Positions 24,480 through 32,054 of a stretch of DNA of 38,690 nt are shown piece by piece. The DNA is from Sphingobacteriia bacterium (GTDB taxonomy: Bacteria > Bacteroidota > Bacteroidia > UBA7662). A model generated the notes under the pieces. That model ran no database searches, was not told where the DNA came from, and saw only the letters and a program-made list of their open reading frames with translations. The stretch's first letter is position 1, and every line of letters begins with the position of its first letter. The stretch covers positions 1-38,690 of the forward strand of contig RFMW01000108.1 in the NCBI GenBank assembly GCA_009927485.1. Reading direction: 5' to 3'. The position numbers and the translations under genes were made by a program.

Positions 24480-27400
24480 ATGAATACATCCTTGACTCTC
24501 CTCAACAGCATTCCAAATCGCCTCCCTATGGCCATCAGGGCAATGCTCCTAACGCTGGCCCTGTTGGTATCAGGATCAGCCATTGTCCATGCTCAACCCA
24601 CCCTTTTGGTCGATCCGGCCGGTGCAGGGGGTTTTGAATTGGGTAATTCCTTTGCAGCCAACGGATGGACCGTGTCGAACGGCGCCAACAATCCGTGGAT
24701 TTTGGGTACAGCCAACACGACAGCGCCGTTTGCGGGGAATTCTGCTTATGTTTCAACCGATGGCACCACGCCGGGCTATACAATCACCACAGCCGCCTCC
24801 AATTTCTTTTGGAGAGACATCGTTGTGCCAGCCGGTCAGGAGCGGGTCAATGTCTCTTTTAACTGGCTTTCAGGCGGGGAATCTACATGGGACCTCTGGC
24901 AAGTATTCTTTGTTCCAAACACGGTAACACCTGTTGGGAGTACGACCCATCCTGGTTCAGGCCTCTCTGCGATACCTAGCACACTTCCTGGTGCTGTTTT
25001 TGTTGCGGGTAGCAACCTTCAGACCGCCGCTGTTCAGACATTTACTGGCGCTGCTTATTTGCCTGCAGGTTCCTACCGCCTTGTTTTCCATTGGAAAAAT
25101 GATGGTACTGGCGGAGCAACCCCCGGTGCATCCTTTGATAATATTTCCGTTAGTTCCCAAGCTCCAGCCACCTTCACATCCGTTGCCACTGGTAACTGGA
25201 GCAACCCCGCCACATGGGGCGGTTCAGTCCCAAGCTCGGCAGATAATATCATCGTTGCTGCAGGCCATACTGTAACCATCGATGCAGTTGGTCAGGCCGC
25301 TGGGAATGTTACTGTTGGAGGTACTTTAACTTATGGAGCTACGCCTACTGAATTTCAAGCCTTCAATCTAACGATTGAATCAAGTGGCTTGGTAAATGTG
25401 TTCCAGAGCACAACCGGCAAAACACTGCGTGTAAGCGGGAATCTCGTGAATAATGGACGTCTTAATACACTAGCAAGTTCAACGGCCAACGGTACGTTGA
25501 ACTTCAACGGAACAGCACCTCAAACCGTTTCGGGAACAGGTGTTTGGGGAGGTACCGTTAGTTCAACAACATCAACCAATGAAGTCGGTGTGATTGGTAT
25601 TCTATCGATAACCAATACGTCCACATCCGTACCAAGAGTCAATTATACCATGGGTGGAACTCTCAGGGTTAGAAGCACATTTACGGTGAATGGCGCTGTT
25701 AATTTAAATGGGTCCACATGGATCGCAGGTAATTATGCGGCTATGGGAACACTTACTTTCAGTAATAACGGAGGATTCATTAACGGTACCTACGGTCGTT
25801 GGTACACGAATGCTCAAACAGGTACAACCATCACGGCAGGGGTAGATCCAAGTACTGCTGCGTCATCTTCTCTCAGTTTGTTTCCAATGTTAAATTCAAA
25901 TGGGGTTCCACGATACTGTTGGATAACCAGAACTTCGTCAACGACCACGGGAAATACTGCTGGTGAAATTCGAGTGACTTACACCAACGAGGGAACCGCT
26001 TTAACGGGCAATGCATTTACAGATGGCGCGTACAATGTTAGTAATTATTGGCCCGGGACTTGGAGTATTTCAACAGCAAGCGGGTATGTATATGCCTCCG
26101 GTACCCATACGCTCACCGCAGTCGCTCCCTCACTATTCGCTCCATCGTCTTCGAATGCAAGACTGATGGTCAACGGTGGAACCTTTGTAGGCAACCATCA
26201 AGCTGGAACGGGAACCCCTGGAGCCCAAAGAACTGGTTTAACGACCGCCCAACTCACCTCTACGAATGGATTTGTGATGGGCATTGGAAGTACAGATTTA
26301 TGTTCTCCGTCAGTTGCCGCCATCAACGAAAATTTTGATTCTTACGGAACAGGAAACATGGTGCCATTCTGTTGGGATCGTATTGTTGTAGGATCGGCCT
26401 CTCAAACCATATCGTCCACATCTCCGGCTTCAGGAACTAGAAACATTTGGCAGTCTAGCAGCCCAGGTAACGTTAGTTATGTGGTTTTGCCTCAAATGAC
26501 GGATATGTTGAACGTAAGCAGTGGTAATTATCGTTTGAAATTCAAAGCAAGAACGGCCACAGCATCCGGTCAACTTGCGGTTGGGTACTTTCCTTCGACA
26601 TCGTTGGTTGCATCAAGTTTTGTTTTGATCACCAATGTACCCCTTACCAACATAACCTACGGATCTGAAACGGTTGTTAATATTCCCGCAGGCATTCCTG
26701 CAGGGTCAAGGTTGGCGATTGCCAACCTTGGGGTTAGCACAGAGTCTCATTATTGGGATGATGTTGTTTACGAAGCGTTACCCGCTTGTTTTGAACCAAC
26801 ATCCCCCGTTCTCGCTTCAACAGGAACTTCTGGCATGCAGTTCAATTTCACTGCACCTTCCACAGCACCATCCAATGGTTATGATGTCTATTTCTCTACT
26901 AGTAATGTTGCCCCGACTGCCGGCACTTCGGCAAGCCCAGGTGCTTCGGCATCGGGTACGAGCGGCGCAATTACTGGGTTAACTCCAAATACCGTTTATT
27001 TTGTTTGGATTCGTTCCAATTGCGGTAGCAGTGGTGTTAGTGCCTGGTCTGGTCCTATAGCGTTCCGTACCCAATGCGAAGTGTTTAATTTGCCTTGGTT
27101 TGAGAGTTTTGAAGCAACGCAAGGTACGGTCACTTGTTGGACTGGAAATTTTGCAAGTTCGGGTGGCACCAACGGTTGGCAGTATCTCCGGATGACACCG
27201 GGCGGTTCGGCACCCTCGAACCAAAACCCAGCCCTACCCGATACCCTTGCCATGCGTTTTCCTTCCTATAGCATTACCTCGGGTATTAGTTACAGTCTTA
27301 ACTCGCCTTTGTTCAATCCTTCGACCCAGGCATCGGTCCTTAGCTTTAACTACGCCTACGCAACGTATGCAACCGAAAATGACAGGCTTGAAATTCTTTC

Positions 27401-30400
27401 TTCTGCTGACGGTGGTGCTAACTACAGCAGTCTTGAAATCATGAACGGAGGTCCTACGGGTCCATTAAATACCGGCGGTGTAACCACCACTTCGTTTGTG
27501 CCAACGACCAGTCAATGGGGAACTAAGCGCATGCGCATACCAGCCGGGTCCAATAGAATCTCATTCAAAGGAATTTCAGCATTTGGTAACCATATTTATT
27601 TGGATAACATTAGCATGACTCCTTGTCAGCCCATCAGTTCATCGATCAGTGCCTCCATTTGTCAAGGTCAGACCTATGCCTTTGGGGCTCAAAGTCTGAA
27701 CGCCGCTGGTTCGTACAGCCGTACGGTAACCGCAGCGAATGGTTGCGATTCGGTGATTAACCTAACCCTAAATGTGTTGCCTACGAGTGCAACAGCTCAA
27801 ACAGCTTCCATATGCCAAGGTCAAACTTTTGCATTTGGACAACAAAACCTTATCGGTGCAGGGACCTATACCAGGACCTTGGTGGCTGCGAATGGTTGTG
27901 ACTCTGTCATCACGTTGACCTTGGAGGTCCGGCCTATAGCTACGGGTACCGTAAATGCAAGCATCTGTTCAGGTTCATCGTATGCTTTTGGGCCTCAGTC
28001 TTATTCCACCGCCGGCACATACACCATGACCACGACCGGTTCCAACGGCTGTGACTCTGTAACCACCTTGAATTTGACAATTTTGGCATTGCCAACCGCT
28101 ACGGTTAACCAAACCGTTCCCTATGGTGGGTCCTTCACGGTCTGCGGACAGGTTTACAATGCGTCCGGTACCTATACCAAAGTATGTTCGGGAGCTGCCT
28201 TGAATGGTTGTGATTCGATTGTCACTTTGAACCTAACGGTTCAATTGCCTCCTGCGGTTGTGATTTCGAACGCCAATGTTTGTCAAGGCGATACGGTCAT
28301 TGTACCAGTCTCTTTGCTGCGGGCAAACGGTGTTGGAGCGATCTCCTTGGCGATTAATTACGATGCAGCGAATTATACTTTCGTTGATGCTGTGAATATC
28401 AATTCAAACATTTCAACCGTTCTGGTGAATGCAAGCGTATTCAACGGTGTTAGCCAAGTGCGCGCGGGATGGTATGCCACCTCGAATCCTGTTAACCTGA
28501 ATGGAACTTTGTTTGGGCTTCGGTTTGTGGCCCCCAATGCCCCAGGCAGCAGCTCGCTTTCCTTTGATTTGTTGACGCCTGGCAATTGTGAAATTGCTGA
28601 TTTTGACGCCATTCCTTTGCCCGATGTTGGATTTACAGGAGGTCAAATTTCTGTAACTGCTGAGTTGAATACCGCGATTAGCGCAAGTATTTGCTCTGGC
28701 TCATCGTATACGTTTGGTGCACAGACTTTGACTGCGCCAGGTATTTACAATCGCACCCTTGTTTCATCCACGGGTTGTGATTCGATTATCACCCTCAACC
28801 TGGACGTTCTTTCCCATAGCTCTGCCAGCATTTCGGCCTCCATCTGTCAGGGTTCCACCTTTGCATTTGGTTCGCAAAACGTATCGGTTGCAGGTACCTA
28901 CACCCGGACCATTCCGGCGTCCAATGGTTGTGACTCGGTCATTACCCTTAATCTGGAGGTTCGTCCTCTGTTGAATTCCACATCGAGTGCCTCCATCTGT
29001 CAAGGTTCAACCTATACATGGGGAGGAACATCCTATACAGTCGCTGGCACCTATACCCAGACCGCGGTTGGTTCCAATGGTTGCGATTCGACTGCGACGT
29101 TGGTATTGACCACAAGGCCGGTTGCCACCTCAATCGTTACTCAATCCGTTCCGTTTGGAGGTAGCATTACCGTGTGCGGTCAGGTATACAATACCAGTGG
29201 TACGTTCACCAAAGTATGTGCGGGTGCTGCAGTTAATGGTTGCGATTCCGTGGTTACGATCAATTTAACCGTTTTGCCCCAATGCGTTTCTCCATCTGCC
29301 TTGGTAGTTTCCTCGATAACTACCTCCGGTGCGTCTTTTGCATGGACTGCGGGTAGTACCGAGACCGCCTGGGAAATCTCAATCCAAACCACAACAGGAA
29401 CGCCCACAGGCAATGGAACCTCGATCACCACGAATCCTTATGTAGCTACTGGTCTTGCCTCCAATACCTTGTACAGAGTTTACCTACGTTCGGTATGCAG
29501 CCCAGCAGATAAATCCCTTTGGATAGGACCGATTAGCTTCAGGACGCTTTGCAATGTGTTTACGTTGCCGCTCTTTGAAAGCTTTGAAACAGCTCAGGGA
29601 ACCAGTTCCTGTTGGTCTGGCAATTTTGCTGCTGGTAGCACCCCGGGTTGGCAATTGGTTCGCTTGACCGCTGGTTCAGCTCCATCCAACCAGACCCCAG
29701 CTCTCCCAGATACGTTGGCAATGCGAATTCCATTTTACGCTATCGAATCCGGATCGTTTAGTTTAAATACCCCCGCATTTACCCCGAATCCAATTGGAGC
29801 TGTTTTGACATTCAATTATGCCTATGCCGCTTATTCAGCTGTGGAAATTGATAAACTTGAAATCATGGCCTCCACCGATGGCGGCGCAACCTATACCAGT
29901 CTTGAAATCATGAACGGTGGCCCCAGCGGCCCTCTGAATACGGGTGGTACAACGACCGCTTCCTTTGTTCCGACTTCGGCCCAATGGGGTCTGAAGACCG
30001 TCAATCTTCCCGCGAATACCAACCGAGTCTCCTTCAAGGGTATTTCGGAATACGGTAACAACTTGTACCTTGATAATATCCGTGTTGCGAATCCTCCGCC
30101 TTGTTCAGCTCCTACTGCCCCTGCGGTGGTGGCGAACAGCGTGGGTTCCTCAACGGCCTCCATTTCTTGGACCGCTCCAGCTTCGGCTCCAGCTAATGGT
30201 TATCAGTTGTTTGTGAGCACTTCAACGACGGCACCAGATGCCGCCTCAGTTCCAACTCGTAGCTCCTCTGCATCGCCAGCGGCTTTGACAGGCTTGGCTC
30301 CGTTAACTACCTACAATGTTTGGGTTCGTTCGTCATGTGCAATCGGAACCTCCTCATGGGTTGGACCAGTTTCCTTCACCACAACTTGTTTGGAGTCCAA

Positions 30401-32054
30401 TATTCCGACCTCTGAGAATTTCGATTCTTATGTAGCCACCGGTGGAACTGCCAATACCGGAACTGCGGTTCCTCCATGTTGGTCACGTGCTAACGGTACC
30501 TCGACAAGTTCGGCTTGGAGAGTCTTCGCGCTTACTGGCTCCAATATTGGAAGCACTTCCGGTGACAATATTTTGGCCTCGTTCCCAACCGTGACAACAG
30601 CGAAGAACGATTGGGCCTTCACCACCGGTTACAACTTGGTGGGCGGAACAACCTACACGCTCCGTTTCAAAGTGCGTGCGCCAGGTAACGGTCCTAATCG
30701 TGAGCGCTTGGGTATTTACCTTGCGAATGCTCGTACTTCTACTGCGATGCTTGCAGGCCCTCGCATCTTCAATGATTCCTTGTTGCAAGCTTCAGGTTGG
30801 CAGTCCAAAACTGCTCGTTTGACTCCTACGGCCTCCGGTGTTTACTACCTTGGTATCCGTGCTTATTCCGTAGCCAATGCAGGGTATATCGGTATCGATG
30901 ATTGGTCACTAGAAGTAACGACCAGCGAAATTGCTGGTACGTTGAAATACCAAGGCGGTGCCTCGGTATTGGATAACAGCACAGTTACTTTGAGTGGGGC
31001 CGTTTCAGCATCTGCGACGACAACGGCTTCCGGTGCATTTGCCTTCACAGGTCTTGGCAATGGCGCCGTGACCCTCACTGCAAGCACCAACAAAGCTTGG
31101 GGTGGAATTACCGCCACTGACGCCTTGGCAACCACTCGTCACTACCAAGGCATTGGTTTGGTCAGCGGTTTGAATCTTGCCGCAGCAGACGTGAACCTGA
31201 GCGCCTTGGTCAATGCAACCGATGCCTTGATGATTATCAACCGTTACAACGGAACGCGTAACAATTTCCCTGCCGGCGATTGGAAATTTGAATCGAAGAA
31301 TTTCAACTTGAATCTTAGCGAAATCACCACGGATCTCTTTGGTATTGCCATCGGTGACGTCAACAATTCCTACTCTCCTGCAGCGGGTCGTCAATTCATC
31401 GGTCTGAACCTTGCTGAGGGTGGCGTTCAATCCATCAGCGATGAAAACTGGATGGACGTGCGTGTTGATCGTGCTTTGGAAATGGGTGCCTTGTCGTTGG
31501 CACTTGATATCCCAAGCGGTGTTCGTATAGAACAAGTGGTTTCCAACTTGGAGGGTGGTCGCTTTGACTACAATGTGCACAACGGTCAATTGCGCCTTAC
31601 ATGGTTTGATGTGGCCGGTGTGAAGTTGGTTGCTGGTCAGTCCTTGTTCCGTATGCGTATTGCCTCGGATCGTTCGGTCGCCGTGAGCGATTGGACCGTA
31701 GCAGAAGGTTCAGAGATTGCTGACCCATTGGCCCAAGTCATGGAAATGGTGGGTCTGCGCATGCCTTCGCTTCGTGGGCTTCAGGCTGACCTCGTGGCCA
31801 CTGTTTATCCGAACCCAACACAGGGCATGAGTTCGGTTCGTTTGAACCTGCCAGCGGCTGGTGAGTTGAAACTCCGCTTGGTGGATGTTTTGGGCAAGGT
31901 GGTGATGAGCCAGACGGTCACAAGCCAGGCCTTGAATACCGAATTGCCTGTGGATATGAGCTCTTTGGCGGCCGGCCGTTACGAGCTTCAAATTGAGCTG
32001 AATGCCGGTGGACGCAATTACCGCACCCACCTCCCAGTTCAACGCAGAGATTAA
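24480..32054 (+). CDS. Giant modular secreted protein: choice-of-anchor/MAM-like modules, G8-like region, FN3 domains, SxSICxG repeats, cohesin-like and dockerin-like modules, T9SS C-terminal sorting domain
   Basis: 2524 aa; signal peptide ending SAIVHAQ; FN3-like segments (e.g. CSAPTAPAVVANSVGSSTASISWTAPASAPANGYQLFVSTS); C-terminal VATVYPNPTQGMSSVRLNLPAAGELKLRLVDVLGKVVMSQTV resembles a type A T9SS CTD. Confidence 0.92.
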   Translation: MNTSLTLLNSIPNRLPMAIRAMLLTLALLVSGSAIVHAQPTLLVDPAGAGGFELGNSFAANGWTVSNGANNPWILGTANTTAPFAGNSAYVSTDGTTPGYTITTAASNFFWRDIVVPAGQERVNVSFNWLSGGESTWDLWQVFFVPNTVTPVGSTTHPGSGLSAIPSTLPGAVFVAGSNLQTAAVQTFTGAAYLPAGSYRLVFHWKNDGTGGATPGASFDNISVSSQAPATFTSVATGNWSNPATWGGSVPSSADNIIVAAGHTVTIDAVGQAAGNVTVGGTLTYGATPTEFQAFNLTIESSGLVNVFQSTTGKTLRVSGNLVNNGRLNTLASSTANGTLNFNGTAPQTVSGTGVWGGTVSSTTSTNEVGVIGILSITNTSTSVPRVNYTMGGTLRVRSTFTVNGAVNLNGSTWIAGNYAAMGTLTFSNNGGFINGTYGRWYTNAQTGTTITAGVDPSTAASSSLSLFPMLNSNGVPRYCWITRTSSTTTGNTAGEIRVTYTNEGTALTGNAFTDGAYNVSNYWPGTWSISTASGYVYASGTHTLTAVAPSLFAPSSSNARLMVNGGTFVGNHQAGTGTPGAQRTGLTTAQLTSTNGFVMGIGSTDLCSPSVAAINENFDSYGTGNMVPFCWDRIVVGSASQTISSTSPASGTRNIWQSSSPGNVSYVVLPQMTDMLNVSSGNYRLKFKARTATASGQLAVGYFPSTSLVASSFVLITNVPLTNITYGSETVVNIPAGIPAGSRLAIANLGVSTESHYWDDVVYEALPACFEPTSPVLASTGTSGMQFNFTAPSTAPSNGYDVYFSTSNVAPTAGTSASPGASASGTSGAITGLTPNTVYFVWIRSNCGSSGVSAWSGPIAFRTQCEVFNLPWFESFEATQGTVTCWTGNFASSGGTNGWQYLRMTPGGSAPSNQNPALPDTLAMRFPSYSITSGISYSLNSPLFNPSTQASVLSFNYAYATYATENDRLEILSSADGGANYSSLEIMNGGPTGPLNTGGVTTTSFVPTTSQWGTKRMRIPAGSNRISFKGISAFGNHIYLDNISMTPCQPISSSISASICQGQTYAFGAQSLNAAGSYSRTVTAANGCDSVINLTLNVLPTSATAQTASICQGQTFAFGQQNLIGAGTYTRTLVAANGCDSVITLTLEVRPIATGTVNASICSGSSYAFGPQSYSTAGTYTMTTTGSNGCDSVTTLNLTILALPTATVNQTVPYGGSFTVCGQVYNASGTYTKVCSGAALNGCDSIVTLNLTVQLPPAVVISNANVCQGDTVIVPVSLLRANGVGAISLAINYDAANYTFVDAVNINSNISTVLVNASVFNGVSQVRAGWYATSNPVNLNGTLFGLRFVAPNAPGSSSLSFDLLTPGNCEIADFDAIPLPDVGFTGGQISVTAELNTAISASICSGSSYTFGAQTLTAPGIYNRTLVSSTGCDSIITLNLDVLSHSSASISASICQGSTFAFGSQNVSVAGTYTRTIPASNGCDSVITLNLEVRPLLNSTSSASICQGSTYTWGGTSYTVAGTYTQTAVGSNGCDSTATLVLTTRPVATSIVTQSVPFGGSITVCGQVYNTSGTFTKVCAGAAVNGCDSVVTINLTVLPQCVSPSALVVSSITTSGASFAWTAGSTETAWEISIQTTTGTPTGNGTSITTNPYVATGLASNTLYRVYLRSVCSPADKSLWIGPISFRTLCNVFTLPLFESFETAQGTSSCWSGNFAAGSTPGWQLVRLTAGSAPSNQTPALPDTLAMRIPFYAIESGSFSLNTPAFTPNPIGAVLTFNYAYAAYSAVEIDKLEIMASTDGGATYTSLEIMNGGPSGPLNTGGTTTASFVPTSAQWGLKTVNLPANTNRVSFKGISEYGNNLYLDNIRVANPPPCSAPTAPAVVANSVGSSTASISWTAPASAPANGYQLFVSTSTTAPDAASVPTRSSSASPAALTGLAPLTTYNVWVRSSCAIGTSSWVGPVSFTTTCLESNIPTSENFDSYVATGGTANTGTAVPPCWSRANGTSTSSAWRVFALTGSNIGSTSGDNILASFPTVTTAKNDWAFTTGYNLVGGTTYTLRFKVRAPGNGPNRERLGIYLANARTSTAMLAGPRIFNDSLLQASGWQSKTARLTPTASGVYYLGIRAYSVANAGYIGIDDWSLEVTTSEIAGTLKYQGGASVLDNSTVTLSGAVSASATTTASGAFAFTGLGNGAVTLTASTNKAWGGITATDALATTRHYQGIGLVSGLNLAAADVNLSALVNATDALMIINRYNGTRNNFPAGDWKFESKNFNLNLSEITTDLFGIAIGDVNNSYSPAAGRQFIGLNLAEGGVQSISDENWMDVRVDRALEMGALSLALDIPSGVRIEQVVSNLEGGRFDYNVHNGQLRLTWFDVAGVKLVAGQSLFRMRIASDRSVAVSDWTVAEGSEIADPLAQVMEMVGLRMPSLRGLQADLVATVYPNPTQGMSSVRLNLPAAGELKLRLVDVLGKVVMSQTVTSQALNTELPVDMSSLAAGRYELQIELNAGGRNYRTHLPVQRRD
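27642..28250 (+). repeat. Protein-coding tandem repeat array A: three SxSICxG...NGCDSVxTLxLxV units plus one variant VCGQVYNxSGTxTKVC unit
   Basis: Units: SISASICQGQTYAFGAQSL...; QTASICQGQTFAFGQQNL...; VNASICSGSSYAFGPQSY...; variant VNQTVPYGGSFTVCGQVYNASGTYTKVCSGAALNGCDSIVTLNLTV. Confidence 0.9.
28251..28664 (+). other. Cohesin-like module within the giant protein
   Basis: PAVVISNANVCQGDTVIVPVSLLRANGVGAISLAINYDAANYTFVDAVN...SQVRAGWYATSNPVNLNGTLFGLRFVAPNAPGSSSLSFDLLTPGNCEIADFDAIPLPDVGFTGGQISV resembles Bacteroidota cohesin-like domains. Confidence 0.75.
28668..29280 (+). repeat. Protein-coding tandem repeat array B, same order as array A (three SxSICxG units plus one variant unit)
   Basis: Units: AISASICSGSSYTFGAQTL...; SISASICQGSTFAFGSQNV...; TSSASICQGSTYTWGGTSY...; variant VTQSVPFGGSITVCGQVYNTSGTFTKVCAGAAVNGCDSVVTINLTV. 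Confidence 0.9.
31086..31386 (+). other. Dockerin-like module within the giant protein
   Basis: KAWGGITATDALATTRHYQGIGLVSGLNLAAADVNLSALVNATDALMIINRYNG...FPAGDWKFES...GIAIGDVNNSYSPAA resembles the Bacteroidota dockerin-like pattern; one loop (DVNLSALVNATD) keeps several Ca-binding positions, the other is degenerate. Confidence 0.75.
31791..32054 (+). other. T9SS type A C-terminal sorting domain
   Basis: LVATVYPNPTQGMSSVRLNLPAAGELKLRLVDVLGKVVMSQTVTSQALNTELPVDMSSLAAGRYELQIELNAGGRNYRTHLPVQRRD. Confidence 0.88.

Follow-up and report, generated by a model that had tools for sequence, protein, structure and literature searches.

A putative T9SS-anchored adaptor scaffoldin and its cohesin–dockerin network in a Bacteroidota family

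Results

The window, by which we mean the whole analysed stretch of 38,690 nucleotides of Sphingobacteriia contig RFMW01000108.1, carries a gene for a large surface protein, hereafter called P0001, whose reading frame is unbroken over 24480–32054. Pfam and NCBIfam scans recovered three FN3 domains and three choice-of-anchor J stretches, and adhesin-type modules make up the greater part of the protein's length (Table 1). The FN3, choice-of-anchor J (earlier described as MAM-like), CarboxypepD_reg, dockerin and type IX secretion system (T9SS) sorting domains all fall where a sequence-only reading of this DNA had put them. The G8-like region proposed there fares less well, with a partial match at the right place and a score below the Pfam cut-off. 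No Pfam match was found to the N-terminal "jelly-roll" region, and the sequence suggests that translation may alternatively start at Met17. Orthologues in two relatives (G005 and G006) have the identical module order at 72–79% identity.

Table 1. Features of P0001 (window coordinates) and selected network proteins (coordinates within their own loci). X-module, CarboxypepD_reg-like module; CTD, C-terminal sorting domain.
Feature	Residues or length	Position	Strand	Basis or remark
P0001, whole ORF, T9SS-type surface protein	2,524 aa plus stop	24480..32054	+	
Signal peptide	1–39	24480..24596	+	Read from sequence by eye
G8-like stretch	245–305	25212..25394	+	Pfam PF10162, partial, 19.8 bits, below cut-off of 22.9
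FN3 + choice-of-anchor J (MAM-like) pair 1	778–1046	26811..27617	+	Pfam/NCBIfam
Repeat array A, four units	1052–1256	27633..28247	+	HMM matches
Coh1, type I-like cohesin	1257–1394	28248..28661	+	Profiles and fold match
Repeat array B, unit order as array A	1399–1600	28674..29279	+	Identity to array A
FN3 + choice-of-anchor J pair 2	1608–1869	29301..30086	+	Pfam/NCBIfam, HMM
FN3 no. 3 + third, divergent anchor-J stretch	1883–2147	30126..30920	+	Pfam/NCBIfam, HMM
X-module, CarboxypepD_reg-like beta-sandwich	2148–2206	30921..31097	+	Pfam PF13620, 20.4 bits, below cut-off; model all-beta
Dockerin	2207–2302	31098..31385	+	Pfam, lineage profile, model helices, loop census
Coh2, second cohesin-fold module	~2304–2436	31389..31787	+	Profile-profile, PDB profile, fold
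T9SS type A CTD	2442–2522	31803..32045	+	PF18962 35.6 bits, TIGR04183 27.2 bits, both above cut-off
E class, alpha-amylase		L021:4398-6962		Source genome; no T9SS sorting domain
E class, lysyl oxidase-like		L027:8108-10822		Source genome; no T9SS sorting domain
E class, S8		L028:1561-4728		Source genome; no T9SS sorting domain
E class, M1		L030:7319-10318		Source genome; no T9SS sorting domain
E class, GH16		L031:8291-10177		Source genome; no T9SS sorting domain
Multi-cohesin ORF L081 (G014:C10)	5,737 aa	1-17211		19 cohesins, terminal X-dockerin; open at contig end
Multi-cohesin ORF L082 (G014:C15)	5,272 aa	2-15817		18 cohesins, terminal X-dockerin; open at contig end

The centre of P0001 consists of two repeat arrays duplicated around its first cohesin, Coh1. 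It had been described as roughly mirror-arranged, a symmetry we reject because the units of arrays A and B run in the same order. The two arrays are 63% identical at the amino acid level, their odd fourth units match each other at 78%, and the first two FN3–choice-of-anchor J pairs are 57% identical. The repeat–cohesin–repeat block also shares 52% identity with its counterpart in the C117 protein (2,102 aa), which points to module shuffling.

Profiles and predicted structure identify Coh1 as a cohesin. In the full-length protein scan, Pfam Cohesin (PF00963) matched residues 1259–1305 at 17.8 bits against a cut-off of 24.1; Coh1 scored E 1e-4 in the genome-wide cohesin scan, and the P0001 orthologues score above the Pfam cut-off. 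A profile of 39 lineage cohesins retrieved the PDB cohesins 6kg8 (E 1.8e-17), 1g1k (5e-12) and 1ohz_A (6e-7). Modelled by AlphaFold (pLDDT 95.6, pTM 0.89), the segment has the jelly-roll fold of a cohesin and matched PDB cohesins in Foldseek with E 1e-10 and a TM of about 0.8. On this profile and model evidence, we are certain that the cohesin-like module first placed at 28251–28664 is a real type I-like cohesin, with bounds adjusted slightly in Table 1.

The tail of P0001 runs from X-module through dockerin and Coh2 to CTD. Its dockerin exceeds the Dockerin_1 cut-off (PF00404, residues 2209–2255, 25.6 bits against 22.9), a lineage dockerin profile retrieves the PDB dockerins 1ohz_B, 1daq and 2mte, and the tail model contains paired dockerin-type helices at residues 2212–2222 and 2246–2257. 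Judged by these matches and modelled helices, the dockerin assignment is certain for the module previously set at 31086–31386. Both half-sites share a similar [NT]-[AS]-T-D-A-L motif, and a twofold repeat is usual for dockerins.

The calcium loops are less regular. Among about 50 dockerins of the lineage that were compared, loop 2 conserves D12 (47/50) and N3 (38/50); its D1 is present in all, a residue demanded by the search pattern. Across the lineage, positions 1, 3 and 5 of loop 1 have no acidic ligand and are mostly occupied by T, K and W, and D12 is kept. A type I dockerin is expected to have two complete calcium loops; P0001 retains loop 2 and has a degenerate loop 1. By its loop sequences the module is a divergent dockerin, and we file it as dockerin-like. 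With one loop degenerate, the module may bind weakly or depend on calcium in an altered way.

Coh2, which the sequence-only reading had missed, sits between the dockerin and the sorting domain. Aligning 42 post-dockerin segments with 133 other cohesins in hhalign gave a probability of 98.7 and E 3.8e-16. In the tail profile, the Coh2 columns retrieved the Archaeoglobus cohesin 2xdh and the dockerin columns clostridial dockerins. An AlphaFold model of X-module, dockerin and Coh2 (288 aa) reached pLDDT 92.7 with pTM 0.88; Foldseek again ranked 2xdh first among its PDB fold matches. Such a pTM for a three-domain model points to a fixed arrangement, and the three modules probably form one rigid unit in which the dockerin is packed in cis. 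The proposed T9SS tail is secured by PF18962 and TIGR04183, both of which identify the C-terminal sorting domain above their cut-offs.

P0001 belongs to a larger set of cohesin and dockerin proteins. At a threshold of E ≤ 1e-3, the source metagenome-assembled genome (MAG; 1.94 Mb, 96.8% complete) yielded 14 dockerin and 17 cohesin matches. T-class proteins end in an X-dockerin with Coh2 and usually a CTD, often preceded by adhesin modules. E-class proteins are exoenzymes with a terminal X-dockerin and neither Coh2 nor CTD, and C-class proteins carry one to three cohesins, with a CTD present or absent. Relatives add GH18, M43 and endonuclease I to the E class of the source genome (Table 1), as well as more amylase, M1 and S8 enzymes. 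Several E-class proteins have signal-peptide-like starts, as judged by eye. Their short ending is not an assembly error, because it recurs across the genus: the CTD-less dockerin proteins of its other genomes stop 6–7 residues past the dockerin. The CTD-less dockerin exoenzymes are also conserved among orthologues.

The source genome thus holds what characterizes a cellulosome, a multi-cohesin scaffoldin together with several dockerin enzymes, with up to three cohesins per protein and five CTD-less enzymes. Neither cellulase nor CBM3 was found in the 29 network ORFs scanned, so we consider that the system works like a cellulosome without filing it as one. SprA, which marks the T9SS translocon, matched on three contigs of the source genome and is intact in four relatives.

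Some network genes have other layouts or interruptions. L137, L151 and L152 show a third layout, with a Fibrobacter succinogenes major domain (PF09603) behind the dockerin in place of Coh2 and CTD. L024:6496-8730 of the source genome, directly 3' of a dockerin gene, encodes collagen-like repeats and a C-terminal cohesin and lacks a CTD. We rejected programmed readthrough between dockerin and Coh2 at the TAG inside some matches, since this TAG is the natural stop of the CTD-less enzymes and the in-frame TAA that separates dockerin from Coh2 at L032:646-648 is a single case. Searching other frames behind CTD-less dockerins for Coh2 or CTD returned only L032 and a likely frameshift in L023; apparent frameshifts occur in the network genes L022:4025-8014 and L023:8051-9765. 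The L032 stop and the L022 and L023 frameshifts are either assembly errors or signs of decaying genes.

Cohesin genes tend to sit next to dockerin genes. Among the eight cohesin-only ORFs of the source genome that were testable, meaning that their upstream DNA was readable, seven immediately follow a same-strand dockerin ORF. Gaps are 19–50 bp in five of these pairs, and a frameshifted tail fragment interrupts one; relatives also have pairs whose genes overlap. Chance would pair about 1% of genes in this way, by our estimate of ~17 dockerin genes among ~1,700. In relative G009, a row of genes (L120:2324-9652) encodes a three-cohesin–dockerin protein, an amylase–dockerin and a subtilase–dockerin, and resembles a small cellulosome gene cluster. 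We judge the TIGR04183 match inside this subtilase to be false, falling on the X-module, as the chain terminates in the dockerin. Both modules share one chain in P0001, the C117 protein and several proteins of relatives. The window genes scanned around P0001 include no network member.

Cohesins and dockerins occur together or not at all across the order. Of the family's 17 species, 16 carry both cohesins and dockerins; the remaining one, G013, lacks both modules yet retains SprA. Four members of the order outside the family also have neither. The resulting split of 21 species (16 with both, 5 with neither, 0 with one) has a probability of 1 in 20,349 if genomes are treated as independent, and shared descent makes the pattern less striking than this figure. 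One 2.0-Mb MAG of the same family, G014, has 47 cohesin matches, and the cohesin counts of its two ORFs in Table 1 equal or exceed those of known scaffoldins. A wider survey sampled 393 genomes of the phylum, of which 132 (about a third) had at least one cohesin match, most of these lying outside the window's class; cohesins per se are therefore not rare in the phylum. Peer et al. in 2009 are said to have studied non-cellulosomal cohesins and dockerins.

The nearest named relatives are MAGs labelled "surface", "Offshore", "DeepCast", Lake Erken and "pond", names from which we infer a freshwater habitat. Two relatives labelled Sphingomonadales are taken for mislabelled. The presence of COX1 indicates that the organism is probably aerobic.

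Discussion

From the modules, folds, gene organization and co-occurrence observed here, we lean towards reading P0001 as an adaptor scaffoldin that is exported by the T9SS, anchored at the surface and part of a lineage-wide cohesin–dockerin network. Binding, cis capping and an export route are what this model would add. A Sec signal and the CTD, in a genome that has SprA, would carry P0001 over the outer membrane and anchor it there. Coh1, a cohesin by fold held between two repeat arrays, would receive the dockerins of other proteins. Beside the CTD, the X-dockerin–Coh2 cassette would be a rigid unit in which, according to the model, Coh2 probably packs against the X-dockerin or caps it in cis; alternatively, its dockerin may be offered to a neighbour's cohesin as a second docking site. 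The X-dockerin exoenzymes without Coh2 and CTD are likely clients, which would dock on free cohesins. Overall, the arrangement would be a cellulosome-like display tied to type IX secretion. The client enzymes suggest starch, beta-glucan, chitin-type glycans and protein as its targets, and not cellulose.

How the client enzymes would reach the surface is less clear. T9SS cargo is reported to cross the outer membrane folded and to need a folded C-terminal domain (PMC9251779). Because the CTD-less enzymes have no known route over the outer membrane, they may never meet a surface cohesin. They would either stay periplasmic, exit by another route or cross bound to the cohesin of a CTD-bearing partner. 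The last option could make the dockerin a sorting signal in trans, with CTD-less X-dockerin enzymes crossing by T9SS as folded hitchhikers on a CTD-bearing cohesin partner, an idea to which we give some chance while doubting it. If it holds, binding would occur in the periplasm, and Coh1 would act both as a socket at the surface and as a chaperone for export.

The sequence-only reading had raised self-assembly, given that P0001 carries both a cohesin and a dockerin. Coh1 would then bind the dockerin of the next P0001 copy, building surface fibres or sheets head to tail. The module identities on which this idea was founded have held up, and their presence on one chain is conserved in the genus orthologues and repeated in other family chains. 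Split gene pairs alongside fused chains are also the pattern expected of partner modules. Cohesin and dockerin on one chain are also a known layout of adaptor scaffoldins. Specific support for self-assembly is lacking, however, because the genome offers many alternative partners, with roughly a dozen further dockerins and numerous further cohesins, because cohesin genes are paired with adjacent dockerin genes, and because the P0001 dockerin is flanked by Coh2 in a high-confidence, predicted rigid unit. Moreover, the P0001 homologue of G014, on a contig cut at one end, keeps the dockerin tail without Coh1. We consider head-to-tail assembly unlikely.

The modules could instead serve structure alone, with the X-dockerin–Coh2 cassette as a stalk that places the CTD, Coh1 as an Ig-like spacer, and no binding in trans. 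Such a use would suit the cassette's high pTM, the degenerate first calcium loop and the ordinary repeat modules on both sides of Coh1, but enzymes with a terminal X-dockerin and no Coh2 or CTD make no sense as a CTD stalk. The coupling of cohesin to dockerin genes, the joint gain and loss of the two modules within the order and the G014 ORFs with 18–19 cohesins also speak against it, and we regard it as improbable. Still more doubtful is an adhesin or biofilm matrix, in which FN3, anchor-J and repeat modules attach to surfaces or other cells while cohesin and dockerin join matrix proteins rather than enzymes. Adhesin-type modules do fill most of P0001, and one cohesin protein of a source-genome neighbour pair has collagen-like repeats; yet the same dockerin type on exoenzymes makes an enzyme role of the network likely, and the two roles are compatible. 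That the assignments reflect chance resemblance among Ig-like and EF-hand-like folds is scarcely credible. Coh1 does score below the Pfam cut-off in the full-length scan, but the profile and fold searches contradict this explanation, with lineage-profile and fold matches of the strength given above and both the dockerin and the orthologue cohesins over their cut-offs.

The usual view of cellulosomes is that of machines used by anaerobic fibre degraders, most of them Gram-positive. A T9SS-tied, family-wide cohesin–dockerin network would extend the cellulosome principle to another envelope, habitat and substrate range, its hosts being small-genome freshwater Bacteroidota with cytochrome oxidase. 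The novelty of P0001 had been sought in its layout; with both modules on one chain a known adaptor-scaffoldin layout, we place it in the T9SS-linked network. In the mostly freely readable literature, we came across no description of the X-dockerin–Coh2–CTD cassette, of the gene pairing or of a network across the family. The system raises the question of how dockerin-tailed enzymes without a sorting domain pass the outer membrane, and the cassette would supply new cohesin–dockerin pairs for protein engineering.

Comparison with known systems

The nearest precedent is the cellulosome-like system of Candidatus Stygibacter (Cloacimonadota; PMC8542988), the only case that we found in mostly freely readable literature of dockerin enzymes joined to a CTD-bearing multi-cohesin scaffoldin. 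Both systems combine signal-peptide enzymes that end in dockerins (there GH18, GH57, S8 and C25) with a large scaffoldin that has many cohesins and a T9SS-type CTD, and targets other than cellulose are common to both. Ca. Stygibacter differs in its phylum, its anoxic lake habitat and the CBM2/CBM3 of its scaffoldin, and the passages covered make no mention of an X-dockerin–Coh2–CTD cassette or of dockerin–cohesin gene pairs (PMC8542988).

Clostridial cellulosomes (CipA of Clostridium thermocellum; 1ohz, 3kcp, 4fl4) share with P0001 and its network the type I cohesin fold, dockerins at enzyme C termini and an X-module adjoining the scaffoldin dockerin. They belong to Gram-positive anaerobes and have SLH anchoring, two full calcium loops, cellulases and CBM3, whereas the system described here has T9SS anchoring, one degenerate loop, a Coh2 past the dockerin and no cellulase among the 29 network ORFs. 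Non-cellulosomal cohesins, such as those of Archaeoglobus fulgidus (2xdh) and Clostridium perfringens GH84C (2jh2), are single modules; 2xdh gave the top structural match for the tail with Coh2 and also matched Coh1 strongly. In contrast to these, the present system has tens of modules per genome in a network anchored by T9SS. Finally, P0001 resembles T9SS surface adhesins with FN3 and choice-of-anchor J repeats in most of its length and in its CTD, and unlike them it carries cohesin and dockerin modules.
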